From contig NZ_ALVU02000002.1 of NCBI RefSeq assembly GCF_000332075.2, positions 62,001 through 126,000 of the forward strand: a DNA stretch of 64,000 bases, written 5' to 3'. Position 1 is the stretch's first letter. Every line of letters begins with the position of its first letter. A program made the position numbers and the translations under genes. The notes under the pieces were generated by a model. That model had not been told where the DNA came from, did not search any database, and was given only the letters and a program-made list of their open reading frames with translations. The stretch is from Synechocystis sp. PCC 7509. Its GTDB lineage: Bacteria > Cyanobacteriota > Cyanobacteriia > Cyanobacteriales > Chroococcidiopsidaceae. This document shows, in pieces, positions 2,421 to 20,139 of this stretch.

Positions 2421-4670
2421 TTACGATCTTTGTAGCGGGTTTGATATCAAATTGCTGTAATATTCATGTTTGGCTAGGAGTTGCTTGTGAGAACCTCGTT
2501 CAACGATTTCCCCGCCCTCAACAACAAAGATTATGTCTGAGTTGCGAATGGTACTTAATCTGTGAGCGATCGCAATCCGCGTACATCCTAACTTACTTAA
2601 ATTCTGTTCTACTAAATTCTCTGTTAGCACATCTAAATGACTTGTAGCTTCGTCTAGCAAAAGGATTGCAGGCTGATGAACTAAAGCACGGGCGATCGCC
2701 AATCGTTGACGCTGACCGCCAGATAACCCCGAACCGCCTTCAGCAATTCGGGTTTCGTATCCCATTGGTAGTTGCACAATATCCTCATGAATCTCGGCAA
2801 CTTTTGCCGCTTGTATTACCTGTTCTAAAGAAATACTGGGGTTGTTAACCATAATGTTTTGCCGGATAGAACCACTAAACAGAAATGGCTCTTGCAACAC
2901 TACTCCGAACTGACTGCGTAAGCTGCGCCAATTTAGGTTTTGTAAAGAGATACCATCGTACAAAATTTCTCCGGTGGTGGGTAAGTACAGACCAAGCAAC
3001 AGTTTTGCTAAGGTACTTTTTCCCGAACCTGACCGACCAACTAAAGCAATTTTTTGACCTGGTTCAATTGTCAAAGAGATATTGCGTAAAACAAGCGGTG
3101 CATTTGGATCGTAGCGAAAGCTAACGTGGTTTAGTTCAATTTGCCCGGTCAAAGGTGGTGCAGCTTTTACCCCGTATAGCTTTTGTTCTGGTTCGGCTGC
3201 CAAAACATCGGTTAGTCGCTCTAGGTGTGCGCCAACTAATTGCAGCCGTTGACCGTTGGATACTAGAGAAGTTAAAGGTACGAGAAAGGCAATGGCGATC
3301 GCATTAAATGCCAACATTGTCCCCAAACTCATCGATCCATTCAGTACCAATAGCGCCCCTACCCATAACAACACGAGGGGCGAACCCGCACGAATTGCTA
3401 ACATTGCCGTGTCAATTCCTGCGGCTAAATGGTTACGTTGTAAGGAAACGTGGAGTTGATTAAAAAATAAATTTGACAAGCGATCGAAAGCTCGATCTTC
3501 GCATCCAGAAGCTTTAACGGTTAAAATGCCCGTCAGCGTTTCTACAAGGTAGCTTTGGGACTCGGCTTGAGCAATTAAATCGCGCTGCATTAAGTCGTGG
3601 ATGCGCTCAGTAGTCGCAAACAAGAGTCCTAATTGAAGTAGACCAGCAATTAGAACCACCAAACCAAAGATCGGCGCTTGCACGAGTAAAAGGACAAGGT
3701 AGCCTAATACAAAAGCACCATCTAAAACTATTGATAAAGTTTGACCTGTGAGAGTTTCTCGAATAGTGGCATTACTCGCCAATCGCATTAACAGATCCCC
3801 TGTGGTTCGTTGCTCAAAAAAACGAAAAGGAAGGGCAAGTAAGCGATCGCAAAAATCCAGCATCATCCGGCTATCGGTGCGTGCTTGCAAATAAATCAGC
3901 AGTATGGAACGCAGATAACTTGTGACGATTAAAGCTAAAATTGGCATTGCCATTCCTAGAGCTAACATTGGCATGATGCTAGTAATCTGGAGGGGGAGGA
4001 CGCGATCGACCAATATTTTAGTAAAGATGGGGAGTAAAAGCCCCATAACTTGTAGTAATAAAGAGCTTCCCAGAATTTGCAGAAGTAAGCCCGGTTTATC
4101 TAGCACGTACCCAATTAAATAATTGCGCCACGATTTCGGAGTTTTAGGAACATTACATTCAAACTGCAATCCCGGCTCAAAGGTTAAAACTACCCCCGTA
4201 AAGCTGGCGGCAAATTCTGCCACCGTCAACCGTCGTCTTCCCAACCCCGGATCGATAATTTCAACCCATTTTGGCGACCAGCTTTCGATAGTAATAAAGT
4301 GACTAAAATCCCAGTGGGCGATCGCTGGTAGTGATATGTATTTAAAATCAGCTAAGTTTTCGATTGAATATGCCTTTACTCGCAATCCATAGGTACGAGC
4401 AGTTTTAGCGATCGCCTCAGCGTGAACCCCATCTCTACCAATACCCAGGCGATCGCGGCATTCAACAACGCTTGTGGGGCGACCGTAGTAGCTAAGAATC
4501 ATTGCTAGGCAAGCTGCACCGCATTCTACAGCGCTTAGTTGCAGCTTTACCGGAACTCGATGTTTAGACCAAGGCATCATACTTTTACTAAAAAAAGATA
4601 AATGTCTCAATCGCCCACCCATTAACTCAATTTTGGAGTAAATTTTTTGTGTGGCTCGAAATGCGTTCAT
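2421..4670 (-). CDS. lanT: Peptidase-containing ABC transporter (C39 LanT type)
   Basis: This 749-residue inner-membrane exporter should cut leader peptides after a double-glycine site and pump out the cores. The N-terminal C39 peptidase has the catalytic triad Cys50 (in VECGAAC), His124 (in SHFITIE) and Asp140 (in IIDPG), with the usual 16-residue His-Asp spacing. Six hydrophobic segments (about 185-450) and a complete ATPase follow: Walker A GRSGSGKST, signature LSGGQRQR, Walker B ILLLDEATSHLD and switch His in IAHRLS. It lies downstream of the first LanM and a truncated HlyD-like gene, and its start overlaps the latter. It is the only exporter in the locus, so it may serve both precursor families. 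Confidence 0.93.
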   Translation of the reverse strand: MNAFRATQKIYSKIELMGGRLRHLSFFSKSMMPWSKHRVPVKLQLSAVECGAACLAMILSYYGRPTSVVECRDRLGIGRDGVHAEAIAKTARTYGLRVKAYSIENLADFKYISLPAIAHWDFSHFITIESWSPKWVEIIDPGLGRRRLTVAEFAASFTGVVLTFEPGLQFECNVPKTPKSWRNYLIGYVLDKPGLLLQILGSSLLLQVMGLLLPIFTKILVDRVLPLQITSIMPMLALGMAMPILALIVTSYLRSILLIYLQARTDSRMMLDFCDRLLALPFRFFEQRTTGDLLMRLASNATIRETLTGQTLSIVLDGAFVLGYLVLLLVQAPIFGLVVLIAGLLQLGLLFATTERIHDLMQRDLIAQAESQSYLVETLTGILTVKASGCEDRAFDRLSNLFFNQLHVSLQRNHLAAGIDTAMLAIRAGSPLVLLWVGALLVLNGSMSLGTMLAFNAIAIAFLVPLTSLVSNGQRLQLVGAHLERLTDVLAAEPEQKLYGVKAAPPLTGQIELNHVSFRYDPNAPLVLRNISLTIEPGQKIALVGRSGSGKSTLAKLLLGLYLPTTGEILYDGISLQNLNWRSLRSQFGVVLQEPFLFSGSIRQNIMVNNPSISLEQVIQAAKVAEIHEDIVQLPMGYETRIAEGGSGLSGGQRQRLAIARALVHQPAILLLDEATSHLDVLTENLVEQNLSKLGCTRIAIAHRLSTIRNSDIIFVVEGGEIVERGSHKQLLAKHEYYSNLISNPLQRS

Positions 4671-4893
4671 TATTTAAGTCAGTAACAGGTTCAATAGCAA
4701 GCCAAGTAATAACGCTAGTAGCGGCAATTAGTCCCACTAGCAACCAAAGATAGAAAAAGGTTTTTGGGGAAAGTAACCGAGGTAAAACGGCTTTCTCCTG
4801 ACTCTCGACGTAGCGGCGCACGGCTTCATCTCTAAAGATTGAGCGTTTTGTAGGTGGAGAATCCCGCAGTGTCTCTTGAGTCGAATCACTCAT
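4627..4893 (-). CDS. Truncated HlyD-type membrane-fusion protein (N-terminus only)
   Basis: This 88-residue protein has a cytoplasmic lead (IFRDEAVRRYVESQEKAV), then LLSPKTFFYLWLLVGLIAA and one transmembrane helix (about 45-68). That is how HlyD-family periplasmic adaptors of cyanobacterial bacteriocin exporters begin. The family normally continues for 200 or more residues of coiled coil and lipoyl/barrel domains. Here the frame ends about 20 residues after the membrane helix and overlaps the exporter start. It overlaps the LanM stop by a few bases, so the three genes are coupled. It is either a deletion remnant still translated or a small anchor protein. Confidence 0.65.
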   Translation of the reverse strand: MSDSTQETLRDSPPTKRSIFRDEAVRRYVESQEKAVLPRLLSPKTFFYLWLLVGLIAATSVITWLAIEPVTDLNNERISSHTKNLLQN

Positions 4894-7800
4894 AATTACT
4901 TACTCCTGGATGTATAGGAGGCGCTAACACTAAAACAGAGGGAATCTGTGTGGGCGCGGCTAAACGCAGTAGTCCATAACCAATACCTGCAAGTCCGGTC
5001 ATCAATCCGGGGGATTCTACGCCTAGAGGAATCCCGCAAAGCCAGCCATTTTGACTAATACTATCGAGGATATTACTTGCAAGGCGATCTATTTGAGTTT
5101 GCCATTGAGGATTTTTAAGGATTTGACTTGCTTGCAATAATAATTCCAGATTGCCTAGATCGCCGTGACATAAAGAGTGATTTTTACCAAAGCCCTCAGC
5201 TATGGTTATTTTGATCGATGTATCAATCTCAGCGTGGATTTCAGAATTGTCAAGATGTTGAAGACATTGCAAACGTACCATCCCAATTCCCGGTGCGCCA
5301 TGACACCACGCTGTCATAAAGTTAGTTTGCTCAATGCTATCTGCTAAGACTGATGTTGCAAACAGGCGCAGATCGGGCCAGTTCGATGCTTCTAGGCTAA
5401 ACAGACTCCGCTCGTAGGCGATCGCATTTAAGGCTGTAGTTCTAAACCTTTCTGCTTTAGAAACGGCAGCTAGTTCAAGCAACGCCCAGGCAATCCCCGC
5501 ATTACCATGAGAACAACCAGCTAGAGGTTTTGTACCAACGGTGGAGACAACCCAACCGCAACCTTGATCCATTGATTTCGCATTGGCTAATAAGCGATCG
5601 CCACATTGAATTGCTAAAGCTAAGGTGCGACTTCTAGAAGAACAACAATAAAGGTTGAGTAAACTAACAATGCAGCCTGCAACACCGCCAATAATATCAA
5701 ATTGCCGATCTTTTTCAATTAGCGGCGGCAAAAGTTCAACTAAACTTTCCGCCTGAGTAATTAATTGGGGTTGCTGCCACAGAGTCCCCAAATGAGTCAG
5801 AGTGTAGATAATGCCACCCCAACCACTAAAACCACCAATTTGATCGATCCAGGAGCGACCCTGCTCTAATTGCCTTTGGAGTGTCTGCAATGCCGAACGA
5901 GCTAAGTTTGTATAGCGATCTTCAGCAGAAATCGCCCCAAGATAAGCTAAAAATAAAATGATTCCTGGCAAACCATCGTAAAGATCGTATCCCAAAGGCG
6001 CAACAGACCAATGGCGGTCATTCACTAAAGTTAAGCCAATCCAGGAAACATCTTGCTCTCCTCGTAAAGCTAAGGTTTCTAGGCGATCGCCTACCGCACG
6101 AGCAGCCATTAATAAACTCTGGCAATCGGCAACAGTTTGAGACTCTGTTAATTTGTAACTTGAATGTCCCTGTTGCTCGTCGGTGCTGAGATAGAGGGAT
6201 GTTAAGGAGGCTCGAATAATCCAAAGTTGCCTTTGTAAATCGGCTTCGCCAAGTTGTTGCAATCGACGTTGCACCGAAGCCAAGCCAGACTCGTCAAGAA
6301 AATTAGCAATTTTTTGACCGGAACTCGCCCATAAATCCTTTGATTCAGGACGGGTAGTAAATAGAGGAATGTCACCTTTTAGCAAGTCTTGACCCTCGGC
6401 GGGAATTAATTTAGCTAAATGGGGAAGATGTTCAACAGCTAACCAAAGTTTATCGAATAAGCGATCGCGCTCTAGAGCATTCCGCAACACATCGGGATGG
6501 AAACTTTCGGCGAGTAATGTAGCATAAGTTCGTGTTGCTCTGACAATTACTCGTACCGTATCCCCAGCAAAACTAGCTAATAGTCCATTCTCTGCTAACA
6601 GTTCCTCTCGATGTTGCCAAAGCAAGCGATACATATTAGTAAAGCCATGATTAATTTCTGCTGCATAATCCAGCACGTTAACTGTTTTGCCGTTAAGGGT
6701 CGGTTGATTCTGCGCTCCTGGCATCTCTACGCGCTGGCGAGTGAGCTTCATTTCATCGGTTCCCACTCCTTCCCAGCGTGGTATTTGGTGGGGAGTCAGT
6801 TGACCTTCTGATGCTCCTAAACCACTAATATCAATGCCTGCAAATTCTTCATTTGACCACATCCGATGAGGAAGCAACCCAATACCATACACTGAGTAAC
6901 CAAGAGTATTGTTAGCAAGTTGGTCTGCTTGTTTGAGATCCGCACCTCCAGCACGGGGATGAAACAACGCTTCTAAGTCAAGTAAAACTGGGTGTTCTCC
7001 CGCCGCAATCAAGTTTTCGTGGTGAAAGTCTGTTGCTTCCAACCCGTAGAGAATAGCTAAGTAAGCTCCTTGTCGCTCGTAAAATCGTTGAATTTCCTCT
7101 TTTGAAGAACAAGTTTGAGCCTCAATAAATTCAACCCAACCATAGGAAACGCGATCGCAGGCTTTCAATGTTCTAAATGGTGGGTGATTTCCGCGGTCAT
7201 TCGTCCAAGTCAACAAGTTTTGGAAATGAATATCGAGAGATAGCGATCGCGGCTTATAGACTACCTGAAAGCCAGAACTAAATTTAGCAATAATTACACT
7301 ACGTCCGTCTCGGTGGCTGTCACCTGCACTACTACTTACTTCTGTTAGTACGCCCGGCTCTATATTTGGAGTAAATGTTGCTCGAATTAAGTCCCAATCA
7401 CTACATAAATGCTGGAGAAATTCTAAACTCACCGCCACCCAGCGATCGACACTAATAGTAAGTTGTCTTGCCAAAACTGGATATTCTTTTAAGATATTTA
7501 GAGCTACATCGTGCTGGCGCAAACGCCCAATAAAGCTTTGAAATCTCTCCTTTGATGTATCTCCTGACAATAATCCTTGCAGACGAGCAACGTTTAATTC
7601 TAATACCAAGGTGCGACTCAACATCATCAACAGTCGCTTTGGGAGGTTGATAAATAACAGGTTTTCTATAGTTTCAATATTGAAAGGTAAATTAGACTGT
7701 GAGGGAATTAATGCTTGTATACCTTCTTTTAGGCGATCGCGTCCTTGACTAATTAACGGCTCAATTATTTCTAAAAAGCCAATTATCTCTATAGCTTTGA

Positions 7801-8137
7801 GTTCTTCGGGAAAAGTCATTACAGCCGGAGGACGAGCAAAGGCTTGTGCTAAATCAGTTAGCCAAGTTGGAGGATGGGAAAAGCGATCGCCTACAACTTC
7901 AATTGGTGCGCCAAGAATGTCAAAAAACTCATCTTCACTAATGCTGTCTGTAGCTAAACGTTGGGCAAAGCAAGCATCTTTATCTAACGGTGACTGCGAT
8001 TTCCAGCGTTCTCTACAACGTTGAGCGAGAGCAAAATCAATTTCAAACTTACTTGGGGCAGTTTTTAACAATGCAATGCGTTCGGTAAGTGCGATCGCTT
8101 GATACCAATCTGCACTTTGAAAAATTGGTTGATTCAT
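4886..8137 (-). CDS. lanM: Class II lanthipeptide synthetase LanM, CHG-type
   Basis: This 1083-residue bifunctional enzyme phosphorylates and dehydrates Ser/Thr in precursor peptides, then forms thioether rings with Cys. The N-terminal DUF4135 dehydratase has a kinase-like set: Lys295 (VVYKP), Asp370 and Asn375 (TDFHHEN), and Asp387-x-Glu389 (LDLE), spaced as in CylM. The C-terminal LanC-like cyclase (from about 720) has Gly-rich repeats and zinc ligands Cys945 (WCHG) with Cys990-His991 (LCHG), the classical Cys-Cys-His set. Two mersacidin-type precursors lie just upstream. The adaptor fragment and LanT follow, so this is likely the main enzyme for those peptides. Confidence 0.95.
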   Translation of the reverse strand: MNQPIFQSADWYQAIALTERIALLKTAPSKFEIDFALAQRCRERWKSQSPLDKDACFAQRLATDSISEDEFFDILGAPIEVVGDRFSHPPTWLTDLAQAFARPPAVMTFPEELKAIEIIGFLEIIEPLISQGRDRLKEGIQALIPSQSNLPFNIETIENLLFINLPKRLLMMLSRTLVLELNVARLQGLLSGDTSKERFQSFIGRLRQHDVALNILKEYPVLARQLTISVDRWVAVSLEFLQHLCSDWDLIRATFTPNIEPGVLTEVSSSAGDSHRDGRSVIIAKFSSGFQVVYKPRSLSLDIHFQNLLTWTNDRGNHPPFRTLKACDRVSYGWVEFIEAQTCSSKEEIQRFYERQGAYLAILYGLEATDFHHENLIAAGEHPVLLDLEALFHPRAGGADLKQADQLANNTLGYSVYGIGLLPHRMWSNEEFAGIDISGLGASEGQLTPHQIPRWEGVGTDEMKLTRQRVEMPGAQNQPTLNGKTVNVLDYAAEINHGFTNMYRLLWQHREELLAENGLLASFAGDTVRVIVRATRTYATLLAESFHPDVLRNALERDRLFDKLWLAVEHLPHLAKLIPAEGQDLLKGDIPLFTTRPESKDLWASSGQKIANFLDESGLASVQRRLQQLGEADLQRQLWIIRASLTSLYLSTDEQQGHSSYKLTESQTVADCQSLLMAARAVGDRLETLALRGEQDVSWIGLTLVNDRHWSVAPLGYDLYDGLPGIILFLAYLGAISAEDRYTNLARSALQTLQRQLEQGRSWIDQIGGFSGWGGIIYTLTHLGTLWQQPQLITQAESLVELLPPLIEKDRQFDIIGGVAGCIVSLLNLYCCSSRSRTLALAIQCGDRLLANAKSMDQGCGWVVSTVGTKPLAGCSHGNAGIAWALLELAAVSKAERFRTTALNAIAYERSLFSLEASNWPDLRLFATSVLADSIEQTNFMTAWCHGAPGIGMVRLQCLQHLDNSEIHAEIDTSIKITIAEGFGKNHSLCHGDLGNLELLLQASQILKNPQWQTQIDRLASNILDSISQNGWLCGIPLGVESPGLMTGLAGIGYGLLRLAAPTQIPSVLVLAPPIHPGVSNYE

Positions 8138-8727: not shown

Positions 8728-8790
8728 AGCAATTTTCTTATTTTAGTTTTAACTGATAATTAATAAAAGACCTCCTACACTTTTGGGTAG
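8728..8790 (-). promoter_or_regulatory. Predicted promoter with CTAC-N8-GTAG box (site A)
   Basis: The box at 8775-8790 reads CTACCCAAAAGTGTAG in the gene direction, an inverted repeat. About 22 bp downstream comes an AT-rich block (8728-8752) shared with the other boxed promoters. The position suits an activator or repressor site in front of the precursor 2 unit. Promoter function is inferred from recurrence only. Confidence 0.6.
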
Positions 8791-8835
8791 TTTTACAAAA
8801 TCATTGATCAATTTCTAGCTGGCTAAATTAGCAAG

Positions 8836-8858
8836 TAAAAAATAAGCGCCCTCTTATT
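8836..8858 (-). terminator. Possible small intrinsic terminator after precursor 3
   Basis: On the minus strand AATAAG and CTTATT form a 6-bp stem with a 6-base loop, followed by a T run. It lies about 65 bp past the stop of precursor 3. The stem is short and AT-rich, so termination would be weak. Confidence 0.3.
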
Positions 8859-8924
8859 TATGAAAAGAAAGAAGGCGATTGCTAACTACCAGCTTACTGC
8901 TTCAAACTACTTGCTATTCAGCCG

Positions 8925-9152
8925 CTACAACGGGTCTTGTCGCTTCACTGTAACGCAGCAAATGTAAGTGCAGTCATAACTACCTCCCAAGGTGTCATCG
9001 TTCCTACGTCCGCCGGAAACATTGCCTAGTTCGTTATTTGTCAATTCGACCAACCCTACCGGATTTTCTGGTAGCAACGCCCGTTCTTTTTCGCTCAAGC
9101 TATTGCGAAATTCTTCGTCTTTCCAAGCCCGAATAATGTTCTCGTGAGACAT
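8925..9152 (-). CDS. Mersacidin-type lanthipeptide precursor 3
   Basis: This is a 75-residue prepeptide. The 48-residue leader MSHENIIRAWKD...LLPENPVGLVELTNNELG ends VSGG. The 27-residue core includes the cluster YDCTYICCVT, giving three Cys with several Ser/Thr, and it ends in a basic, Cys-free tail. No CTAC-N8-GTAG box is seen directly upstream. It is either read through from the VOC-like gene or has its own unrecognised promoter. Confidence 0.88.
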   Translation of the reverse strand: MSHENIIRAWKDEEFRNSLSEKERALLPENPVGLVELTNNELGNVSGGRRNDDTLGGSYDCTYICCVTVKRQDPL

Positions 9153-9441
9153 ATTTTCCTCCCACTATTGTTAGATTGATATGGAAAAACTTACTTTTAA
9201 ATAACGCTAGACGTTCGCTACCTCTGACCGCTCTGATAAAGGGTTTAGCCTTCCTTTGGTAGCAACAAAGTGGAGGAAGCGACAGAAACTCCACAAACCG
9301 CCTACATTATTTTGAGATTTGCACTGTTTGAATCTCTGTCATCGCTCTCCTTGAAGATCCAACAATGGGACATAACGGTAAAACTCCCATCCAGTGCATA
9401 ACTCTGTTGTAAGCGATCGCACAGTTGATGTTGCCCACACA

Positions 9442-9482
9442 TTTAGGTAGTCTTTGATTCAGTTTTAAGAAATCTACCTAAA
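9442..9482 (-). terminator. Stem-loop between the VOC-like gene and precursor 3
   Basis: TTTAGGTAG (9442-9450) pairs perfectly with CTACCTAAA (9474-9482) across a 23-base loop. It lies about 45 bp past the stop of the VOC-like gene. There is no strong U run, so it may be a weak terminator, an mRNA-stabilising hairpin or a protein site. Confidence 0.35.
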
Positions 9483-9525
9483 AAAATGCGATCGCACATT
9501 AAAAATTACATCGCCTAGCACTTTC

Positions 9526-10005
9526 CTAAGCTGCTATAGGCTCAATTGGCTGACCTAAGATTTGCTCCATCACGTCTGGTTGCATGGTTTGTAAATATTG
9601 GGGTACAAATTCCGGCGGTAAAAACTCCAACAGGATACGATCCTCTACCCAAAACTCAATGGCGCTAAAGGGCGCATCCCCTGCTTGGCGAGTCAGAGTG
9701 CGCCACCCTTCCCGTTGCCCAATCTGCTCAATCTGTTGATGAGTAGTAGGAACTGAAATTGCGGCATGGGAAGCTACAAAGTTGGTAGGTGTAGTTTGAA
9801 TTACCTTAGCTGATTGGGTATCAGTACCCGGAATCCATACATCTCCTGCTTTAAAAACTACAAAGTGAGTGCCATAGTTATCAAAGGGCATCACGATGTA
9901 ACTACCAGGAATTAGAAATTTATATACTTTGCCTTTCAAGATTTCGGCTAGAACGCCAGCAACTCGTAATGGATTGTAAGCATCAATTGAAATATGATGA
10001 ATCAT
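9526..10005 (-). CDS. VOC/glyoxalase-like small protein within the precursor array
   Basis: This 159-residue soluble protein begins MIHHISIDAYNP and contains GSYIVMPFDNYGTHFVVF and SAIEFWVEDRILLEFLPPEF. These beta-alpha-beta-beta-beta-like segments resemble the vicinal oxygen chelate fold, as in bleomycin-resistance and glyoxalase proteins. I see no full metal-ligand set, so a binding role is as likely as catalysis. It is embedded between precursors 3 and 4 on the same strand, and its gene ends near a stem-loop. A tailoring or immunity role is possible but only inferred. It could also be an unrelated passenger. Confidence 0.55.
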   Translation of the reverse strand: MIHHISIDAYNPLRVAGVLAEILKGKVYKFLIPGSYIVMPFDNYGTHFVVFKAGDVWIPGTDTQSAKVIQTTPTNFVASHAAISVPTTHQQIEQIGQREGWRTLTRQAGDAPFSAIEFWVEDRILLEFLPPEFVPQYLQTMQPDVMEQILGQPIEPIAA

Positions 10006-10133
10006 TAGAATGACTCCTTAAGTCAAAATTACAGTGGATTTTAACAGAGATGCGATCGCACCTTTATCTATGAGAAAAAGGCAAGCGATCGCTTTTAATT
10101 AATTTCACTAATTGAGAATGATGGCAATTTATG

Positions 10134-10364
10134 CTACTTCTCTACACCACAAATTAGAGGTAAAGTACAAGCAATAATTCCTGAATTGCAACTTTCATCG
10201 CCGCCATAAGTAAACTTTCTTCCACCCGCCGCATTTTCTAACTGAGTATCTGTCAGTTCAAGCATTCCTGCGGGGTTTGCGGGTAGTAGTGACTGTTCCT
10301 CTGGGGTGAGACTTTGGCGATAATTTTCGTCTTTCCAAGCCCGAATAATGTTCTCGTGTGACAT
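10134..10364 (-). CDS. Mersacidin-type lanthipeptide precursor 4
   Basis: This is a 76-residue prepeptide. The 48-residue leader MSHENIIRAWKD...LLPANPAGMLELTDTQLE ends AAGG. The 28-residue core is the longest of the five and has three Cys, in ESCNSGIIACTLPLICG, so up to three rings are possible. The TLPLIC portion, a Thr followed four residues later by Cys, is the kind of spacing seen in mersacidin and lichenicidin cores. The gene lies 80 bp after precursor 5 and is probably co-transcribed with it. Confidence 0.9.
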   Translation of the reverse strand: MSHENIIRAWKDENYRQSLTPEEQSLLPANPAGMLELTDTQLENAAGGRKFTYGGDESCNSGIIACTLPLICGVEK

Positions 10365-10444
10365 AACTTTCTCCTAAAAATAGTTAATTGGTATGAATTT
10401 GTTGTTAGCTTGCGTCGCTGAGTTTTAAAGAGTGTCAGCAAAAG

Positions 10445-10639
10445 TTAGCAGCAGACAATACACTTCGACATATAGTGGGTATCTTCAGCCCGGATACCAC
10501 CAGCAGCAGCGCCTAGATCCTCATCAATCAGTTCAACCAGCCCCGCAGGGTGTGTTGGTAAAAGTTCGCTTTCCTGCTTGCTTAAACTATTGCGAAACTC
10601 TCGATCTTTCCAAGCACGAATGATATTTTCGTTAGACAT
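10445..10639 (-). CDS. Mersacidin-type lanthipeptide precursor 5
   Basis: This is a 64-residue prepeptide. The leader starts MSNENIIRAWKD, with Asn in place of the His in its sisters, and ends AAAGG. The core is IRAEDTHYMSKCIVCC, with Thr, Ser and three Cys including a terminal Cys pair, so at least one Cys must stay free or form a disulfide. It is the first gene after a CTAC-N8-GTAG box about 95 bp upstream. Confidence 0.88.
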   Translation of the reverse strand: MSNENIIRAWKDREFRNSLSKQESELLPTHPAGLVELIDEDLGAAAGGIRAEDTHYMSKCIVCC

Positions 10640-10685
10640 ACTTTCCTCTTGTTGTTGTTAAATTGCTTTAAAAAATACTTATTTA

Positions 10686-10747
10686 AAGCAATTTTTAATC
10701 CTGTTGTAATCGATTCTTAATAAGATTTGCCCTACCCCTTTGAGTAG
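10686..10747 (-). promoter_or_regulatory. Predicted promoter with CTAC-N8-GTAG box (site B)
   Basis: The box at 10732-10747 reads CTACTCAAAGGGGTAG in the gene direction. The AT-rich block toward the gene (10686-10710) keeps the AAGCAATTTT pattern of site A, in a more diverged form. It precedes the unit precursor 5, precursor 4 and VOC-like gene. Confidence 0.55.
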
Positions 10748-10796
10748 TCTTATTATTTTTTACCAAGCTCAGAATTAACCTTTTAAAAAATTGCTA

Positions 10797-13700
10797 TTAC
10801 TCCCATAGCAATACTGAAGGTAATTGCTCAGGCTGTGCTAATCGAAGTAGCTGATAACCAATTCCGGCGCTTCCTGAGAAAAAGCCAGGATTAAACACAG
10901 AATTAGGTAAATTAGGAAACAGTTGATAAGCTCCGGTACGCTTGACTTTAACCACAACATTTGTGGCATTTTGCAAAGCAACTTGATACAAGTCAGAACG
11001 AGAGTAGCGTTGAGCCGCAACCAAAAGCACTTCAACCCGACCCAGATTGCCACAGCATAGATGATCGATTGCTTGCAACGCATAGCGCTGGGTAGTCTGC
11101 AAAGCTATGTCAATCTCCCATTCAACTCCAGGAATGTTGGCAATCTCCAAACTTCCCAAACGTCCTAAGCCAATTCCCGCCGCACCATGACACCACTGCA
11201 CGGGAAAGTTATTAGGTTGTCCTAGTTGGCGAAAGTCGGGCCAGTTGCCATTAACAGAGGAAAAAACCCTGCGTTCGTACTCAATCCCTTCTAGAGCGGC
11301 GGCTAAATAGTTGCCATCTTGAGTAACAGCATAGAGTCTTAGCAGCGCATAAGAGATACCCGCAGCCCCGTGAGAGAAACCTGTAAATGGTCTTTCCCCA
11401 AAGCTTTTCCAAGCTTGAGGAGCGCCTTCATAACTAACCCTGTGGGTGAGTAAATGCTGTCCGCAGGCGATCGCTCGATCTAATACCGTTGCGTCTTCTG
11501 TTACTTTATACAGAGACAATAGCCCTAATATTGCTCCCGCCGCACCGCCAATAATATCTAAATGTTTATCCGCCGCAATCAGTTCCGGTGTCATCCAAGT
11601 AGCCAAGATTTGAGCATCTTGCAACAGAGTTTCATCATTCAAGAAATGGCTGATTTTGACAAAGGTATAAATAATCGATCCTAAACCCGATGCGCCGCCA
11701 ATTCCCATAAGACGCGCACTTCGCTGCTGAGACTCTAAATCGAAGGAGTGAATTTGCTGGCGAAAAGATTGTAAAGTCCGCAATGCTAAATCGCAAAAAC
11801 GTGACTCTCCAGATACCTGAGCCAGAGCGGCGAGAAACAGAGCCACCCCACAGCGTCCAGAATAAAGATTATCGTTCAATACGTGGAGTTGAAATCTTTC
11901 TGACTCTGGCATATAGATTAAGCTAACCCAGTTGATGCTACCGTCGGGGTCGGGAATTGCTCTTGCTTCTAGCTCTATTGCGATCGCCTTAGCTTCTTCA
12001 ATCAACTGTACCTTATTGAGCAAAGGTAAAGATTCAACAGTATGCCATTGCTCATCTTGGCTTGAATATTGCGCCACCTTGGCGTAAAAAGAGCCTTGAA
12101 TAATTGCCACTTGTCGGGACAAATCGGTTTCATTCAATGCTTGTAATTGGCTCAAGACCTGTTGGTAACTTGGCTGTTGAAAGTAGTTAACAATAGTTTG
12201 ATTGGCTAAATTCAACTCATCACTAGCAGCACTAGCAGTAAAAAAAGGAATGTCTAACTGCTCCATCGCGCGCAATTCTGCATTCAGAATCGACCAAGCT
12301 TGGGGTTTGTTCTGAGCCACCAAAAAGGCATAACTGAGGCGATCTAGTTCAATACTATAATCCACTCCATGCTTAAGGTAATCGGGTGTCCAGGCGTTTT
12401 GTAAGGTCGTACCATAGATCCGAGTAGCGCGGAAAATAAAGCGGATTTGTAGCTCTTTCATGGCAGCTAACGGACTATTTTTTGCCACCAATCTATCCTT
12501 ATTTACCATCAAGAAGCGATACATCTGCTCGAATCCAGTAGCAATTTGTGCCTGATAATTGTTAGCAGATAGAGCAGTTTTACCTAAATGCGGCACGTTT
12601 TTCTCTACAGGGAATGTCACTAACTCTTGCTGCTGGTGCATATCGTCAGTATTAATTGCTTGCCAGCGACGCACTTTTCGAGCCGTAGCTTGAGAATCGG
12701 CACTACCCAACCCACTAATATCATAGGCAATACGGCGATCGCTACTAAAGTCCCATCGCGGTAACATTCCCGTGCGTAATACCGAATCCCACAGGTGTTG
12801 AGCGGCGGCGGTATCAAACTCTTGAATAAAAGGTGAGTTTTCAATTAAATTTGCTTCATGATGCAGCAGAGTTTCCATATCAATCAACACCAAATGTTCG
12901 CCACTAGCAATCAAATTTTCGCAGTGACAATCAGTTCCTCTGAGGGCATAAAGTAAGCACAACAGCATTCCGGCTCGCCGATAGAAGCGTGACGCAGCAT
13001 TTTCATCTACACAAGGTTGATGTTCTACACATTCCACCCAACCATAATTAACTTGGTTAAGCACCTGAATTACTTTGAAATCTAATAGCTGGCTGTTTTG
13101 GTTGCACCAGTTCAAAAATTGGTTAAAAGCCGCCTCTAACCCTAAATCTTTGGGCTTGTAGACAATTTTGAGTCCAGACTCAAAGGTAAGCAAAATAACG
13201 CTTCGTCCGCGTTGGTGGGCATCGCTAAGAGCGGTTTGGATTGCAATAACTTTATTTTGGGCAGATAACCCAGTTGTTGAGCCAAAAACACGCTGAATAT
13301 CTGTTTGATCTTGAGCTAATCTTTGGATAAATTCTGCTGTGAACTCAACCCAAAAATTGACGGCGGTTGCTACTAACCGACCTAAAACTGGATACTTTTG
13401 GACAAAGGTCAGCAATCCATCTTCAAGCAGTTGAGCAACAAACTGGGTATAGTAAGTTTTACTCTTGTTTTCTGTTTCCAATCCCAACAAATTGAGCAAA
13501 TTTTGACCAAAGGGACGAACCTGGGAAAATTCAAAATCTAAGGTTTTAGTGCAAAGTGCCGCCAGTCGTTGCAGCAAACTACGTTCTAAGGCACTGTAAG
13601 CGGCTTCGGAAAGGATTGATAGAGGTTGCTTAGTTAATAGTTGTTGTCTGGCAACGGCGATCGCTGGTAGTAAAATATCTTCAAAGGGGATAGGATTTTC

Positions 13701-14090
13701 TGGGTCTATTGGTAAAACCGATCCAGGAGTAAATTTTGTTGCTGTTTGAATAATCTGTTGCAGGGTTTCCGCCCATTTTGGCAACGGCTCCGTAGCATTT
13801 AATCGCACTGTTCCCATTAGAGGCAAAACCGTGTCCGTATCTAAACCTTCCCATTGCAAACGCTTTTGCAAAATATCCCAATTGCCTTGAGCGGCGACTT
13901 GACACCAACGATTTAAGCGTCGGTCAATTTCTGCTTCCTTTGCTTGGGAGTTATCCGCAGTAAAACGCTGTAGATCGAGGCGTTCCCACAGAAAGCTGGC
14001 ATTAGCAACAATCAATGTTAAATCTGCGTGAGTGCAATAGATGGAAGGTGCGTAGGCGTAGCCCGCCGTAGGCATCGCTATTTGAGACAT
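10797..14090 (-). CDS. lanM: Class II lanthipeptide synthetase LanM, CCG-type (ProcM-like zinc site)
   Basis: This 1097-residue enzyme has the same two-domain plan as the other LanM. Dehydratase residues are Lys312 (VYKP), Asp387 and Asn392 (TDCHCEN), and Asp404-x-Glu406 (IDMET). The cyclase ligands are Cys967 (WCHG) and Cys1012-Cys1013 (LCCG), so the third ligand is Cys and not His. In ProcM and its relatives this Cys-Cys-Cys site goes with relaxed substrate choice and Nif11-type leaders. Four Nif11-type precursors lie upstream on the same strand, and the nearest may be co-transcribed. The N-terminal stretch (about 1-20) before THADLTLI is less conserved, so a start further in is possible. 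Confidence 0.95.
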   Translation of the reverse strand: MSQIAMPTAGYAYAPSIYCTHADLTLIVANASFLWERLDLQRFTADNSQAKEAEIDRRLNRWCQVAAQGNWDILQKRLQWEGLDTDTVLPLMGTVRLNATEPLPKWAETLQQIIQTATKFTPGSVLPIDPENPIPFEDILLPAIAVARQQLLTKQPLSILSEAAYSALERSLLQRLAALCTKTLDFEFSQVRPFGQNLLNLLGLETENKSKTYYTQFVAQLLEDGLLTFVQKYPVLGRLVATAVNFWVEFTAEFIQRLAQDQTDIQRVFGSTTGLSAQNKVIAIQTALSDAHQRGRSVILLTFESGLKIVYKPKDLGLEAAFNQFLNWCNQNSQLLDFKVIQVLNQVNYGWVECVEHQPCVDENAASRFYRRAGMLLCLLYALRGTDCHCENLIASGEHLVLIDMETLLHHEANLIENSPFIQEFDTAAAQHLWDSVLRTGMLPRWDFSSDRRIAYDISGLGSADSQATARKVRRWQAINTDDMHQQQELVTFPVEKNVPHLGKTALSANNYQAQIATGFEQMYRFLMVNKDRLVAKNSPLAAMKELQIRFIFRATRIYGTTLQNAWTPDYLKHGVDYSIELDRLSYAFLVAQNKPQAWSILNAELRAMEQLDIPFFTASAASDELNLANQTIVNYFQQPSYQQVLSQLQALNETDLSRQVAIIQGSFYAKVAQYSSQDEQWHTVESLPLLNKVQLIEEAKAIAIELEARAIPDPDGSINWVSLIYMPESERFQLHVLNDNLYSGRCGVALFLAALAQVSGESRFCDLALRTLQSFRQQIHSFDLESQQRSARLMGIGGASGLGSIIYTFVKISHFLNDETLLQDAQILATWMTPELIAADKHLDIIGGAAGAILGLLSLYKVTEDATVLDRAIACGQHLLTHRVSYEGAPQAWKSFGERPFTGFSHGAAGISYALLRLYAVTQDGNYLAAALEGIEYERRVFSSVNGNWPDFRQLGQPNNFPVQWCHGAAGIGLGRLGSLEIANIPGVEWEIDIALQTTQRYALQAIDHLCCGNLGRVEVLLVAAQRYSRSDLYQVALQNATNVVVKVKRTGAYQLFPNLPNSVFNPGFFSGSAGIGYQLLRLAQPEQLPSVLLWE

Positions 14091-14244
14091 AGGGCAAATT
14101 CTGAGGATGAGGGGTGATAATTCGAGTTAGCAATTTAAGAAAAAGGCGATCGCACTGTGTGATCGCTAAAAATCTGTAAAGTAAAGGGAAGTTAGTCTTC
14201 CCCTCAACAATTGGCTGACATTAAAAGCTCTGAAATCTAACAGA

Positions 14245-14505
14245 TTATTCCGAGCAATAAACCAAGCCACATTTACAATCAGGCATTCTTCCACCAGCAA
14301 CAGCGAGTAAGTCAGATTCTGTTAGGGCGTGTTCCTCTAACATCAACCCGCTAACTACTTGTGCTATGCTTTCTTGGCTGAAAAAATAGCCTTTTTCTGC
14401 TCCAGCCGTTACAATCATTTTAGTAGCTTCTACTAAGTTACTGGCTGCTTTTAATTGTTGCTGCAATTGAGTATTCTGTAGCAGTTCTTTGATGTTTAAA
14501 TTCAT
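14245..14505 (-). CDS. Nif11-type precursor peptide A
   Basis: This 86-residue prepeptide has a 72-residue leader of the Nif11-like kind: IKELLQNTQLQQQLKAASN, an AGAEKGYFFS turn, then LTESDLLAVAGG with a C39 double-glycine site. The core RMPDCKCGLVYCSE has three Cys but only one Ser and no Thr, so at most one lanthionine could form. It is the closest precursor to the CCG-type LanM (about 150 bp) and lies below box C. Confidence 0.88.
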   Translation of the reverse strand: MNLNIKELLQNTQLQQQLKAASNLVEATKMIVTAGAEKGYFFSQESIAQVVSGLMLEEHALTESDLLAVAGGRMPDCKCGLVYCSE

Positions 14506-14557
14506 GAGCTTGTTCTCTTTTTCTGATTTAGTTTGCTTTAGAAAATCTACTTCGTTA

Positions 14558-14620
14558 GAGCAATTTTCTTATTCTGTTTTAATTAATAAATAGTAGTTTT
14601 TGTACTACACTTTTGAGTAG
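14558..14620 (-). promoter_or_regulatory. Predicted promoter with CTAC-N8-GTAG box (site C)
   Basis: The box at 14605-14620 reads CTACTCAAAAGTGTAG in the gene direction. About 20 bp further toward the gene is the shared block ATTAAAACAGAATAAG (in 14558-14585). It drives precursor A and probably the CCG-type LanM. Confidence 0.62.
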
Positions 14621-14700
14621 TTTATTATTTTATTCAACCTCTAAAAAAGTGATGTGCAATGATTAAGAAAATCTTTTTCAATTATCATCTAAGTGAACAT

Positions 14701-14730
14701 TATAGGGGCGCAATGCATTGCGCCCCTATA
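14701..14730. repeat. 30-bp perfect palindrome
   Basis: TATAGGGGCGCAATG is followed directly by its exact reverse complement. It lies in a gene-free stretch between precursors A and B. GC-rich palindromes of this TAGGGGCGCAATG type are, as I recall, scattered in cyanobacterial genomes. It could be a REP/MITE-like element or a cruciform/hairpin acting as a weak bidirectional barrier to transcription. There is no T run. Confidence 0.7.
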
Positions 14731-14847
14731 ACGGTTATATGTTTATAAATTAAATAGGATTGCTATATTTATGAAACACATAAACTCGCTACAGTTACCA
14801 TCGAATTAGCTTGAAAACAAGCTAATCTTTAAGAAAAAAGCCGAACT

Positions 14848-15120
14848 TTAGCAACGAGTCCCTGAATTTATTGTTTTACACAATCCGCCGGAAATTGGTT
14901 GTAACCCCCCAGTAACTGCTAGTAAATCAGCTTCCGAAAGTTCCTGTTCTTCTAAACTTAGCCTGCTGAACATTTGAACTACACTATCTTGGGTGAAAGA
15001 GTAGCCTTTTTTTGCACCAAAATTTGTAATCAATTTGATAGCTTCTATCAAGTTATCCGCTTCTTTGACTTGCTGTTGTAATTGAGTATTTTGCAGTAGT
15101 TTTTTGATGGTCAAAATCAT
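14848..15120 (-). CDS. Nif11-type precursor peptide B
   Basis: This is a 90-residue prepeptide. The 72-residue leader (IKKLLQNTQLQQQVKEADN...LSEADLLAVTGG) ends in a double glycine. The core LQPISGGLCKTINSGTRC has two Ser, two Thr and two Cys, well placed for two rings by a LanM. It is the last of three adjacent Nif11 precursor genes that follow box D. Confidence 0.9.
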   Translation of the reverse strand: MILTIKKLLQNTQLQQQVKEADNLIEAIKLITNFGAKKGYSFTQDSVVQMFSRLSLEEQELSEADLLAVTGGLQPISGGLCKTINSGTRC

Positions 15121-15241
15121 GAGCTTATTCTCCTTTTTGAAGTTAATTGATGTCAGCTATTGAAATTACCCAAACTAAAGTGAATAATAACTTCTCTTTG
15201 AGATATTTTTTGCTAACAATTGCCTTACTTTTGGAATGTAT

Positions 15242-15517
15242 TTAACAGAGAACAGAGAAAATACTATCCCACGATGTAAATATAGTACAACTGTTTCTCA
15301 ATCCACCACTGACTGCAAGTAAGTCTTCTTCCGTAAGTTCTTGTTCTATTAACATTAGCCCACTAACTATCTCAGCGACACTATCTTGAGTAAAAGAATA
15401 GCCTTGTTGTACTCCAGCATTTGTAATCAGTTTGATAGCTTCTACTAAGTTGCTAGATTCTTTGATTTGCTGTTTTAGTTGATTATTTTCCATGAGGTGT
15501 TTGATATGTTGAATCAT
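15242..15517 (-). CDS. Nif11-type precursor peptide C
   Basis: This is a 91-residue prepeptide with leader IKHLMENNQLKQQIKESSN...LTEEDLLAVSGG. The core LRNSCTIFTSWDSIFSVLC is rich in Ser/Thr (four Ser, two Thr) with two Cys near the ends. That leaves room for both rings and unreacted dehydro residues. The leader closely matches those of B and D, which points to recent duplication with a hypervariable core. Confidence 0.9.
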   Translation of the reverse strand: MIQHIKHLMENNQLKQQIKESSNLVEAIKLITNAGVQQGYSFTQDSVAEIVSGLMLIEQELTEEDLLAVSGGLRNSCTIFTSWDSIFSVLC

Positions 15518-15664
15518 GAGTTTATTTTCTTTGTTGAAGTTAAGTAATCTAGAAAAATTCAGCAGCAGTTTTAATTCTTATGCTTTGAGCTAGAATTAGA
15601 TAGATTTGGAGCAGAGTCTAGCAATCTATTTAAGATACAGACTCTTACCCTACCCGATGCAAGC

Positions 15665-15931
15665 CTACCAGCAGCAATCGTAAAAGCTTAACCCCGTTAT
15701 AGCAGAACCCCGCAACCCACCAGTAACAGCAAGTAGTTCAGATTCCGAAAGTTCCCGTTCGTCTAGTATTAGTTCGCTAACTACTTGAGCTACATTTTCT
15801 TGGGTAAAAGTGTAGCCTTTTTGTACACCAGCATTTACAATAAGTTTGATAGCTTCTACTAAGTTGCTAGATTCTTTAACTTGCTGTTTTAGCTGAGTAT
15901 TTTGTAGTAATTGTTTGATGTTGTAAATCAT
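15665..15931 (-). CDS. Nif11-type precursor peptide D
   Basis: This is an 88-residue prepeptide. Leader IKQLLQNTQLKQQVKESSN...LSESELLAVTGG. Core LRGSAITGLSFYDCCW has two Ser, one Thr and a CysCys pair next to a C-terminal Trp. The gene is the first one after box D and probably heads the D-C-B unit. TCTCCTTTT on the plus strand gives it a good ribosome site (AAAAGGAGA). Confidence 0.9.
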   Translation of the reverse strand: MIYNIKQLLQNTQLKQQVKESSNLVEAIKLIVNAGVQKGYTFTQENVAQVVSELILDERELSESELLAVTGGLRGSAITGLSFYDCCW

Positions 15932-15964
15932 GAGACTGTCTCCTTTTGGTTTAATAAAGCTTAC

Positions 15965-16033
15965 TTATTTAAAGTAGCTTTCCTACTCTGTTTTAATCAA
16001 ATAAAAATCAAACACAACTACCCTTTTAAGTAG
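15965..16033 (-). promoter_or_regulatory. Predicted promoter with CTAC-N8-GTAG box (site D)
   Basis: The box at 16018-16033 reads CTACTTAAAAGGGTAG in the gene direction. It lies 8 bp after the stop of the LuxR-type regulator and upstream of the Nif11 unit D-C-B. The ATTAAAACAGAGTAGG block toward the gene matches that of site C. Confidence 0.6.
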
Positions 16034-16041
16034 TCGTATTG

Positions 16042-16635
16042 TTATTTATCGATCTCAAAATATAGTTTTTTTGGTTCTAAGCAACTACGTTTTTTGGCGT
16101 AAATATTTTTGGCATGAAACTTCACAGTATTGAGACTGATTTGCAGCATTTCAGCAATTTCTTGATAGGTGTATGCTTTCGATAGCAAATTTAAGATTTG
16201 TGTTTCGCGTTCGGTTAGGTCGTATTTTTTTTGCTCTATCCATAATTCTTCTTGCAAACTTGCATTACGATCTTCTAAAAATACTAGCAACCAAGGGCGA
16301 TCTTCTACTCCAAAAGTAACTTGGGAAGCGCGAATCCGAATAGTTTGCTCCTCAGCGATTTGATACTCTATTACAAGCTCTCTGTTCTTAGAACTAGAAT
16401 TTTTAGTTAAGCGATAATAAATATCAGCAATAACTGGAGGTAGATTATCTGAATAATGTTTATTAAGACAGAGTTGTTGACAGATTTCTCTTGCTTTTGA
16501 ATTTAGATAAACAGGTTTGAGATTTTGAGAGACAAACATTACCCCTTCTTGAATTAGATCGATTAATGAGCTTTTAAGTTCATTAATATCGGGAGAAAAG
16601 CTGCTTAGGTAATTTGGCTTTATTGTGTTTATCAT
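16042..16635 (-). CDS. PAS-LuxR-type transcriptional regulator
   Basis: This 197-residue cytoplasmic DNA-binding protein has a PAS-like sensor at about 18-125 (LIQEGVMFVSQNLKPVYLNS, ending LLVFLEDRN). A LuxR/GerE helix-turn-helix follows at about 138-190 (YDLTERETQILNLLSKAYTYQ, then EIAEMLQISLNTVKFHAKNIY). There is no receiver domain, so the signal is likely sensed by the PAS part or by an unknown partner. It is the uppermost gene of the peptide locus and adjoins box D. LuxR-type dimers bind inverted repeats, so it is the natural candidate for the CTAC-N8-GTAG boxes, but this is an inference. Confidence 0.85.
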   Translation of the reverse strand: MINTIKPNYLSSFSPDINELKSSLIDLIQEGVMFVSQNLKPVYLNSKAREICQQLCLNKHYSDNLPPVIADIYYRLTKNSSSKNRELVIEYQIAEEQTIRIRASQVTFGVEDRPWLLVFLEDRNASLQEELWIEQKKYDLTERETQILNLLSKAYTYQEIAEMLQISLNTVKFHAKNIYAKKRSCLEPKKLYFEIDK

Positions 16636-19305: not shown

Positions 19306-20139
19306 GGGTTGTGTTGCAAAAACTTAGTGAAGACAGAAAACCCCTGTGGCAGGAGTTGAAATTATGCAACTACCCCAAAGATTTGATAGATAAAGACAAG
19401 TCGCTCTTTGATGGCTCCCCTGGGAACACCAATAACTTGTCCTTTTCTAACCATGTTCAGAGTTTCATATCCCCGAATGGTTCTTCTTGCAGTGTTGAAG
19501 GAGCCAAATCCCATTCCTGGTTTGACTAATCGTTTTATCCCCCGATGGTCTTGCTCCACAATATTATTGAGATATTTAATCTGTCGTAATTTCACTACTT
19601 CGGGTAACTTATTGGCAGCTTTGAGTACGTTAATCGCTTTTGGATAAGCAGGGTTCTTATCCACAGTGATGACTCTTGGTACGGAAGTGTGAATTGCTTT
19701 CAATGTCTTACGCAAAAACCGTTTCGCCGCTTTCGCATCCCGCTTCGCTGTGAGGAGGAAGTCTAAGGTGTTCCCTGCCGAATCGACTGCTCGGTATAAA
19801 TACTTCTGCTTGCCTTTGACCAAAATATAGGTTTCATCTACCCGCCATGAGTCATTAGTAAGCTTTAGATACGGTCTGACTCGTTTGTCCATTTCTGGAC
19901 TATATTCTTGCACCCAACGGAAGACGGTGCTGTGATGTATATCTAATCCCCGCTCGTTCACCATCTCTGTTACTTGGCGATAGGAAAGCGGATAGCTTAG
20001 ATACCACCGAACACAACGTAGGATGATTTCTGACTGATAATGCCGCCACTTGAAGGGGGATTTAGAATTCATTAGAGGCCGGTACAATGATTTTCTCTAG
20101 CGGAATTATTTCAGCCTACCATTTTTTGCAACACAACCC
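19306..20139 (-). mobile_element. IS6-family insertion sequence, intact copy
   Basis: This 834-bp element has terminal inverted repeats GGGTTGTGTTGCAAAAA at both ends and one intact transposase gene. The 8-bp flanks differ (ACAAATTA and CCTATTTC). There is therefore no target duplication, which suggests that recombination between IS copies has changed the neighbourhood. Gene fragments on both sides (ureD, DUF1778 antitoxin) end exactly at its borders. Confidence 0.92.
19362..20072 (-). CDS. IS6-family DDE transposase
   Basis: This 236-residue protein starts at the ATG of MNSKSPFKWRHYQ; a TTG five codons earlier is an alternative. It has an N-terminal helix-turn-helix (LSYRQVTEMVNERGLDIHHS) and the catalytic DDE set: Asp in WRVDETY, Asp in VITVDKNPAY and Glu in NIVEQDHRGIKR. 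This is the only IS6 copy in the window with an unbroken frame. Confidence 0.93.
   Translation of the reverse strand: MNSKSPFKWRHYQSEIILRCVRWYLSYPLSYRQVTEMVNERGLDIHHSTVFRWVQEYSPEMDKRVRPYLKLTNDSWRVDETYILVKGKQKYLYRAVDSAGNTLDFLLTAKRDAKAAKRFLRKTLKAIHTSVPRVITVDKNPAYPKAINVLKAANKLPEVVKLRQIKYLNNIVEQDHRGIKRLVKPGMGFGSFNTARRTIRGYETLNMVRKGQVIGVPRGAIKERLVFIYQIFGVVA

Follow-up and report, generated by a model that had tools for sequence, protein, structure and literature searches.

How does a cyanobacterium switch on its lanthipeptide genes, and can peptides of two kinds be made on one signal? This switching-on appears to have been little described, and the question is raised by a locus of Synechocystis sp. 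PCC 7509 within a stretch of 64,000 nucleotides (contig NZ_ALVU02000002.1, positions 62,001 to 126,000), which we analyzed as a whole and call the window, using its own numbering throughout. Here a lanthipeptide cluster with both Nif11-type and mersacidin-type precursors lies beside a gene for a PAS-LuxR regulator, and units of both types are preceded by a 16-bp palindrome, CTAC-N8-GTAG. We propose that this box is, very likely, the operator of the neighboring PAS-LuxR protein in a predicted class-II-type activated promoter, and that the two peptide kinds are probably made on one signal. The regulator gene and the sites are as follows.

16042..16635, minus strand: PAS-LuxR transcription regulator of 197 amino acids and putative reader of the box, with F173 in its recognition helix SLNTVKFH
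16018..16033, minus strand: site D, CTACTTAAAAGGGTAG, just after luxR and ahead of the first Nif11-type unit
15990..15995, minus strand: TAAAAC of site D, spacer 22, putative -10
14605..14620, minus strand: site C, CTACTCAAAAGTGTAG, ahead of Nif11-like precursor 4 and LanM1
14576..14581, minus strand: TAAAAC of site C, spacer 23, putative -10
10732..10747, minus strand: site B, CTACTCAAAGGGGTAG, ahead of mersacidin-type precursors
10703..10708, minus strand: TACAAC of site B, spacer 23, putative -10
9435..9450, minus strand: site E, CTACCTAAATGTGTGG, a degenerate box
9406..9411, minus strand: TACAAC of site E, spacer 23, putative -10
8775..8790, minus strand: site A, CTACCCAAAAGTGTAG, ahead of mersacidin-type precursors 4 and 5 and LanM2
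8746..8751, minus strand: TAAAAC of site A, spacer 23, putative -10

Sites A to D formed the basis of an original prediction made from the letters alone, which overlooked site E. All four lie on the minus strand and fit CTACYYAAARGKGTAG without a mismatch, and the distances from the upstream box edge to the start codon, 112 (A), 108 (B), 115 (C) and 102 bp (D), agree with the approximately 90-115 bp then estimated. The prediction had named beforehand, as an observation that would speak against it, a random occurrence of the box throughout the genome; a whole-genome search (4.9 Mb) instead finds the exact motif at these four sites only, all in this cluster. When up to two mismatches are allowed the count rises from these four to 46, versus 42 for a reversed-pattern control, and inexact matches elsewhere are thus background. 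Within the window, the bare CTAC-N8-GTAG occurs four times, whereas 300 dinucleotide shuffles average 0.56 occurrences each (maximum 4).

The palindrome is one part of a longer element, which comprises an A-run, CTAC-N8-GTAG, 22-23 bp and TANAACAGAAT. In the site alignment a second block, TTAMAACAGAAT, follows the box. The AT-rich block of the original prediction does not lie at a loose 20-30 bp: as TTAMAAC... it stands at a constant 22 bp, or 21 at site D. This block is better described as a spacer of 23 bp (22 at D) followed by a -10-like TANAAC. Site E has the form CTACCTAAATGTGTGG-N22-TTACAACAGAG, with one arm degenerate, and lies 298 bp ahead of the precursor start at 9152. The pattern CTAC-N8-GTNG-N20..24-TTAMAA has eight matches in the genome, five of which, with distances of 21-22, belong to this cluster. 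The composite of box and block, a pattern framed after the sites had been seen, was observed five times in the window versus none in 300 dinucleotide shuffles.

The cluster contains many paralogous precursors, and the sites might resemble one another merely because a single promoter-leader stretch has recently been duplicated there. Mean identity among the five window sites is 0.82 for the box and 0.73 for the block, however, versus 0.39 for the spacer, 0.32 upstream and 0.34 downstream. Conservation of box and block without that of spacer and flanks points to selection on two parts and argues against mere recent duplication, and the same element also stands ahead of unrelated genes in other genera. 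This explanation is therefore disfavored, to the point of being scarcely credible.

We collected 34 sites from five genomes: five from the window genome, 18 from Cyanosarcina radialis (G421), seven from G033, three from G450, and one from Aliterella atlantica CENA595 (G003), which belongs to the same genus as the window genome. The spacing to TANAA is 23 in 30 of the 34 and 22 in the other four, under a pattern that allowed spacings of 22-23 only and required TANAA, such that several columns are partly fixed by the search patterns. The hexamer is TANAAC at 29 sites and TATAAC at eight, and the T preceding TANAA is replaced at five. We take TANAAC as the -10 element because of these TATAAC sites and because of the 5′ end of an RNA, CyVA-1, directly ahead of which site E stands.

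9321..9397, minus strand: CyVA-1 RNA (RF02965), cmscan 82.2 bits versus a gathering threshold of 41.4, beginning two nucleotides after the start predicted from TACAAC

With TACAAC (9411-9406) as the -10 element of site E, the predicted start is 9399, two bases ahead of the CyVA-1 closing stem. Transcription would begin about 7 bp beyond TANAAC, and the box center would then lie near -43, as judged from TANAAC and from the edge of the CyVA-1 model, which is a model edge rather than a mapped 5′ end. The same offset predicts starts near 8739 (A), 10696 (B), 14569 (C) and 15983 (D) on the minus strand, and it can be carried over to the sites of C. radialis HA8281-LM2. With its center near -43 the box would replace the -35 element, as in a class-II-type activated promoter. 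Two other readings, TTAMAA as -35 and subsequently CAGAAT as -10, were dropped on the same two grounds, and CAGAGT as the -10 at site E would place the start within the closing stem of the RNA.

The conserved RNA is longer than its Rfam model. In an alignment of 28 of the 30 loci returned (among L219-L247; L243 and L248 were left out), it extends over about 185 nucleotides (window about 9397-9212, minus strand), of which the 77-nucleotide model represents the first part only. A second stretch, TGTGGAGTTT..TCGCTTCCTCCACTT...CAGAGCGG, is conserved across the 28 loci, and its TCGCTTCC is, by eye, largely complementary to AAGGAGAGCGA of the first part. The box stands upstream of only one of the 28 copies examined, that of the window, and additionally of a copy on contig C10 of C. 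radialis (L158:3057-3133); the latter and the window copy (9397-9321) are 86% identical over 218 bp, across genera. The window genome also carries a second CyVA-1 copy.

What might read this element? The protein encoded next to site D carries a C-terminal LuxR/GerE helix-turn-helix (HTH; PF00196, 3.3e-11, residues 140-181). The PAS label given to it by the original prediction gains support from an AlphaFold (AF2) model, which combines a PAS-like N-terminal half with the LuxR HTH and whose first three Foldseek matches are phage VqmA and EL222 (twice); isolated PAS domains were also matched, and Pfam PAS models give weak matches in one or two of six homologues. Among 24 LuxR proteins selected from the matches, a tree groups those of the five box genomes with that of a further genome, G640 (support 96/91). 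All six carry Phe in the recognition helix (SLNTVKFH), at a position occupied by Thr in the 13 other nearer relatives and by Lys in the five distant ones.

Box and regulator also occur together across genomes. Among 388 sampled genomes of the order, 16 encode a close LuxR relative (E<1e-35), and the composite is found in 35 by a loose match and in six by a strict one. Five of the six strict-composite genomes are among those 16 (Fisher 3.6e-7), and the same five are among the six of the Phe clade (5e-10). The box lies directly after luxR in three of the five, namely the window genome, G033 and C. radialis. Together with the findings described below, that both precursor types follow the composite in three genera and that the composite is missing from all 20 control loci, this co-occurrence supports the original proposal that mersacidin-type and Nif11-type units share a single regulator, probably the LuxR protein encoded at 16042-16635.

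The box could instead be read by some other protein, such as a response regulator or a CRP protein resembling NtcA, with luxR a mere neighbor or target. NtcA-activated promoters have a -10 element without a proper -35 element. They also carry a palindrome with 8-bp spacing near -41.5 (PMC3898017), a geometry much like that proposed here. Yet the NtcA arms are GTA-N8-TAC, the reverse of the TAC-N8-GTA order here, and the site does not match the NtcA pattern. Moreover, NtcA, a CRP-family protein, is described as universal in cyanobacteria (PMC3898017), yet the strict composite is missing in 382 of the 388 genomes, and its presence tracks that of the close LuxR. We consider a different reader quite unlikely.

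Several observations nevertheless weigh against assigning the box to PAS-LuxR. The strict filter was chosen after the sites had been seen, and on the loose list only seven of the 35 genomes have a close LuxR. The association derives from five genomes, four of which fall within two GTDB families (the window genome with G003; G033 with C. radialis), and because these genomes are related the p-values overstate independence. G640 is the main exception: it has a Phe-type LuxR, but its box is not above background (nine matches with up to two mismatches, none exact, versus 11 for the control). A. atlantica has the LuxR but a single strict site that does not adjoin luxR, and G016, the remaining strict-composite genome, lacks a close LuxR and has its single site outside frames of at least 90 amino acids. 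A near-box, CTACCCAAACGGGTGA, is present in three congeneric Thr-helix genomes about 570 bp upstream of the luxR match, again outside frames of at least 90 amino acids, which makes related operators in the Thr group possible. As for the protein, Pfam does not call a PAS domain in it, the AlphaFold model was built from a two-row alignment and is of middling confidence (predicted local distance difference test score, pLDDT, 69), and the Foldseek template modeling (TM) scores are low, at 0.28-0.37 over the query for the nine matches with E<=0.001.

The near-box loci are L198:1456, L199:3539 and L202:1157, and a conserved GGAATATA stretch comes next. Separately, all ten genomes of family f58 within the Thr-helix sister group (L193-L202) have a frame with SPAYTxVPTYECFN after luxR, which we take to be cofG-like (F420 pathway).

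A box scan around more distant LuxR relatives gave no composites. A stricter composite pattern, applied to 84,980 bacterial species in a collection from which near records may be omitted and in which neither the window genome nor G033 was among the matches, returned 12 stretches. Six of these are taken as real, one from A. atlantica CENA595 and the others from five contigs of C. radialis HA8281-LM2. The other six were rejected as chance: each is one match only, located in an unrelated organism or in a coding frame of Calothrix, and each overlaps an open frame of at least 90 amino acids. As far as that collection and pattern go, the element appears restricted to a small cyanobacterial group.

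Within this group, the composite precedes both leader types in three genera, represented by the window genome, C. radialis and G450. The orthologous double-LanM cluster of C. radialis lies on contig C53 (18.4 kb), with LanM1 69% and LanM2 67% identical, and contains five boxes: four precede lanthipeptide units, with both leader types represented, and the fifth precedes a small exported protein encoded among them. An additional, orphan mersacidin-type precursor on its contig C62 also has a box. The luxR gene of C. radialis is on contig C13, and the LuxR protein would therefore act on the C53 cluster in trans. In G450, which belongs to another family, LanM1 is 71% and LanM2 67% identical, and there are three boxes: one before LanM2, one before a Nif11-like precursor, and a TTAC variant that is separated from the mersacidin-type leader downstream of it by a gene which, by eye, is insertion sequence (IS)-like.

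LanM2 relatives at E<=1e-100 are far from confined to these genomes, being found in 76 of the 354 searched, although A. atlantica, which has the LuxR, has none at this threshold. We used as controls 20 LanM2 loci from 18 genomes outside the 16 with a close LuxR; two of the loci are short contigs and eight include only 1.5 kb on each side of the match, and none of the 20 has the composite. The element is thus not a general lanthipeptide promoter. The bare CTAC-N8-GTAG proved too common to serve as a marker, since it occurs at three of the 20 control loci, and only the composite separates the two sets.

The original prediction had suggested scanning related cyanobacterial genomes for sites before lanthipeptide precursors. 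Such sites were found, but they are not exclusive to lanthipeptides, and in the relatives unrelated genes follow the element too. Lanthipeptide genes account for 12 of the 34 collected sites (A-D of the window, five in C. radialis and three in G450). Apart from these and site E there are 21 sites. At 13 of them the gene that follows encodes, as judged by eye, a small protein whose N-terminus is signal-like; two of the 13 share one gene. Small, apparently exported proteins of about 150-186 amino acids occur in many copies behind the box in C. radialis and G033, and many of them carry fPGSkC- and CPI-like stretches (L094, L095, L159, L279:894, L293-L295). Six such or neighboring proteins were scanned; four are without a Pfam family and two are DUF3574, one encoded behind a box in G033 (L094:13399-13914) and the other adjoining luxR in A. 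atlantica, where it is not a site target (L035:369-815). BLAST found no LanM in two stretches around luxR in G033, and as far as seen the regulon thus stands there without lanthipeptides. On contig C54 of C. radialis a box (L290:1396) precedes two short frames that resemble, by eye, a ParD/ParE-type antitoxin-toxin pair.

The range of these genes also bears on whether the palindrome is an operator at all, rather than a mobile repeat or an RNA hairpin serving as terminator or leader element. Pairing between the arms is perfect in G033 (CTACCCGAAAGGGTAG), and there a T-run comes next, on the strand opposite that of the gene. By eye, however, arm pairing in the window copies is imperfect or relies on wobble, and no T-run comes afterwards in the gene direction. 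The second block is at a constant distance, the copies lie ahead of unrelated genes and have outer flanks that are poorly conserved, and 22 of 23 sites lie outside open reading frames of at least 90 amino acids. A hairpin or mobile repeat is accordingly very improbable.

With the palindrome read as an operator, a one-component PAS-LuxR dimer, receiving its signal at the PAS domain, would bind the box and recruit RNA polymerase. In the window genome it would switch on the Nif11-type units, the mersacidin-type units and the CyVA-1 RNA together, and in relatives the same regulator and promoter would also drive families of small exported proteins. These latter targets suggest that lanthipeptides joined a wider regulon for secreted products. 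More broadly, we see about an even chance that PAS-LuxR heads a trans-acting regulon in which a single signal, environmental or related to cell density, releases two lanthipeptide classes, families of small exported proteins and the CyVA-1 RNA, and that the CTAC-N8-GTAG operator and the recognition helix (Phe versus Thr at 173) changed together.

Activation is itself a prediction, for the computed data do not separate it from repression, and with the box edge at about -36 PAS-LuxR could bind the box and repress, or could be a repressor released by its signal. A site immediately upstream of the -10 element at fixed phasing, as seen here, is typical of activators. PimM and VqmA, which this regulator resembles in design, are likewise activators, and we regard repression as unlikely.

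In Streptomyces, the PAS-LuxR regulators PimM, PteF and FscRI bind, in the -35 region, a 16-bp palindrome of consensus CTVGGGAWWTCCCBAG, and a single regulator of this kind can act on two or more biosynthetic clusters (PMC9774167). The protein described here shares with PimM the one-component arrangement of N-terminal PAS and C-terminal LuxR HTH, as well as a 16-bp palindrome with CT...AG ends. However, the box, CTACYYNNNNRKGTAG, has different inner bases and does not match the PimM consensus, the host is cyanobacterial, and the predicted targets comprise ribosomal peptides, an RNA and small exported proteins, in place of mainly type I polyketide genes. VqmA of Vibrio and of phage VP882, a PAS-HTH protein, activates the promoter of a small RNA, and a residue of its HTH contributes to promoter choice (PMC8284805). 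It is the top fold match of the LuxR model and has the same one-component PAS-HTH design, but it reads a GG-N6-CC palindrome (GG-N9-CC for the phage form) and senses DPO (3,5-dimethylpyrazin-2-ol), which is not indicated here. The NarL heptamers and the RcsB box are inverted half-sites like the present operator, but with other half-site spacing. Regulators of the NarL/FixJ type share the LuxR-type recognition helix and HTH similarity with the window protein, whereas family-library and Pfam scans found no receiver domain in it. By analogy, the predicted system resembles PimM and VqmA in design, with a different box.

A literature search at the level of titles and abstract openings found no regulator-operator pair for cyanobacterial lanthipeptides. 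The predicted regulator and operator, with predicted starts and 34 candidate sites in five genomes, are directly testable. The operator offers a handle for inducing silent clusters, and it points to new members such as the orphan precursor and the small exported proteins.

The remaining genes of the window cluster are given below.

15665..15931, minus strand: Nif11-like leader precursor 1, TIGR03798 26.6 bits
15242..15517, minus strand: Nif11-like leader precursor 2, TIGR03798 27.0 bits
14848..15120, minus strand: Nif11-like leader precursor 3, TIGR03798 25.1 bits
14245..14505, minus strand: Nif11-like leader precursor 4, TIGR03798 27.7 bits
10797..14090, minus strand: LanM1, class II lanthipeptide synthetase, DUF4135 and LANC (Pfam)
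10445..10639, minus strand: mersacidin/lichenicidin-type precursor 1, TIGR03898 66.1 bits
10134..10364, minus strand: mersacidin/lichenicidin-type precursor 2, TIGR03898 69.5 bits
9526..10005, minus strand: 159-amino-acid protein inside the mersacidin-type unit, between precursors, with no NCBIfam match and only one Pfam match, which is sub-threshold
8925..9152, minus strand: mersacidin/lichenicidin-type precursor 3, TIGR03898 67.5 bits
8484..8678, minus strand: mersacidin/lichenicidin-type precursor 4, TIGR03898 54.8 bits
8257..8454, minus strand: mersacidin-type precursor 5, a reading frame whose start is the internal MSHEN ATG
4886..8137, minus strand: LanM2, class II lanthipeptide synthetase, DUF4135 and LANC (Pfam)
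2421..4670, minus strand: C39-peptidase ABC exporter, PF03412, PF00664 and PF00005

In the minus direction the order is luxR, site D, three Nif11-like precursors, site C, Nif11-like precursor 4, LanM1, site B, two mersacidin-type precursors, the 159-amino-acid protein, site E, one mersacidin-type precursor, site A, two precursors, LanM2, a short HlyD-like frame and the exporter. Two LanM proteins with DUF4135 and LANC, mersacidin-type leaders and a C39-peptidase ABC exporter identify this as a class II cluster. The mersacidin-type leader scores above the TIGR03898 cut-off in all four precursors scanned of the five. All four Nif11-like leaders, at 25.1-27.7 bits, fall under the curated TIGR03798 cut-off of 32.3.

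The HlyD-like frame (4627-4893) comprises 88 amino acids, compared with 201 for its counterpart in the equivalent place in G450, and is possibly a truncated adaptor gene. Frames that by eye resemble transposases are found at 1365-2188 and 19362-20087, on either side of the cluster, and the contig that contains the cluster (332 kb) is distinct from the 4.2-Mb contig of the same genome.

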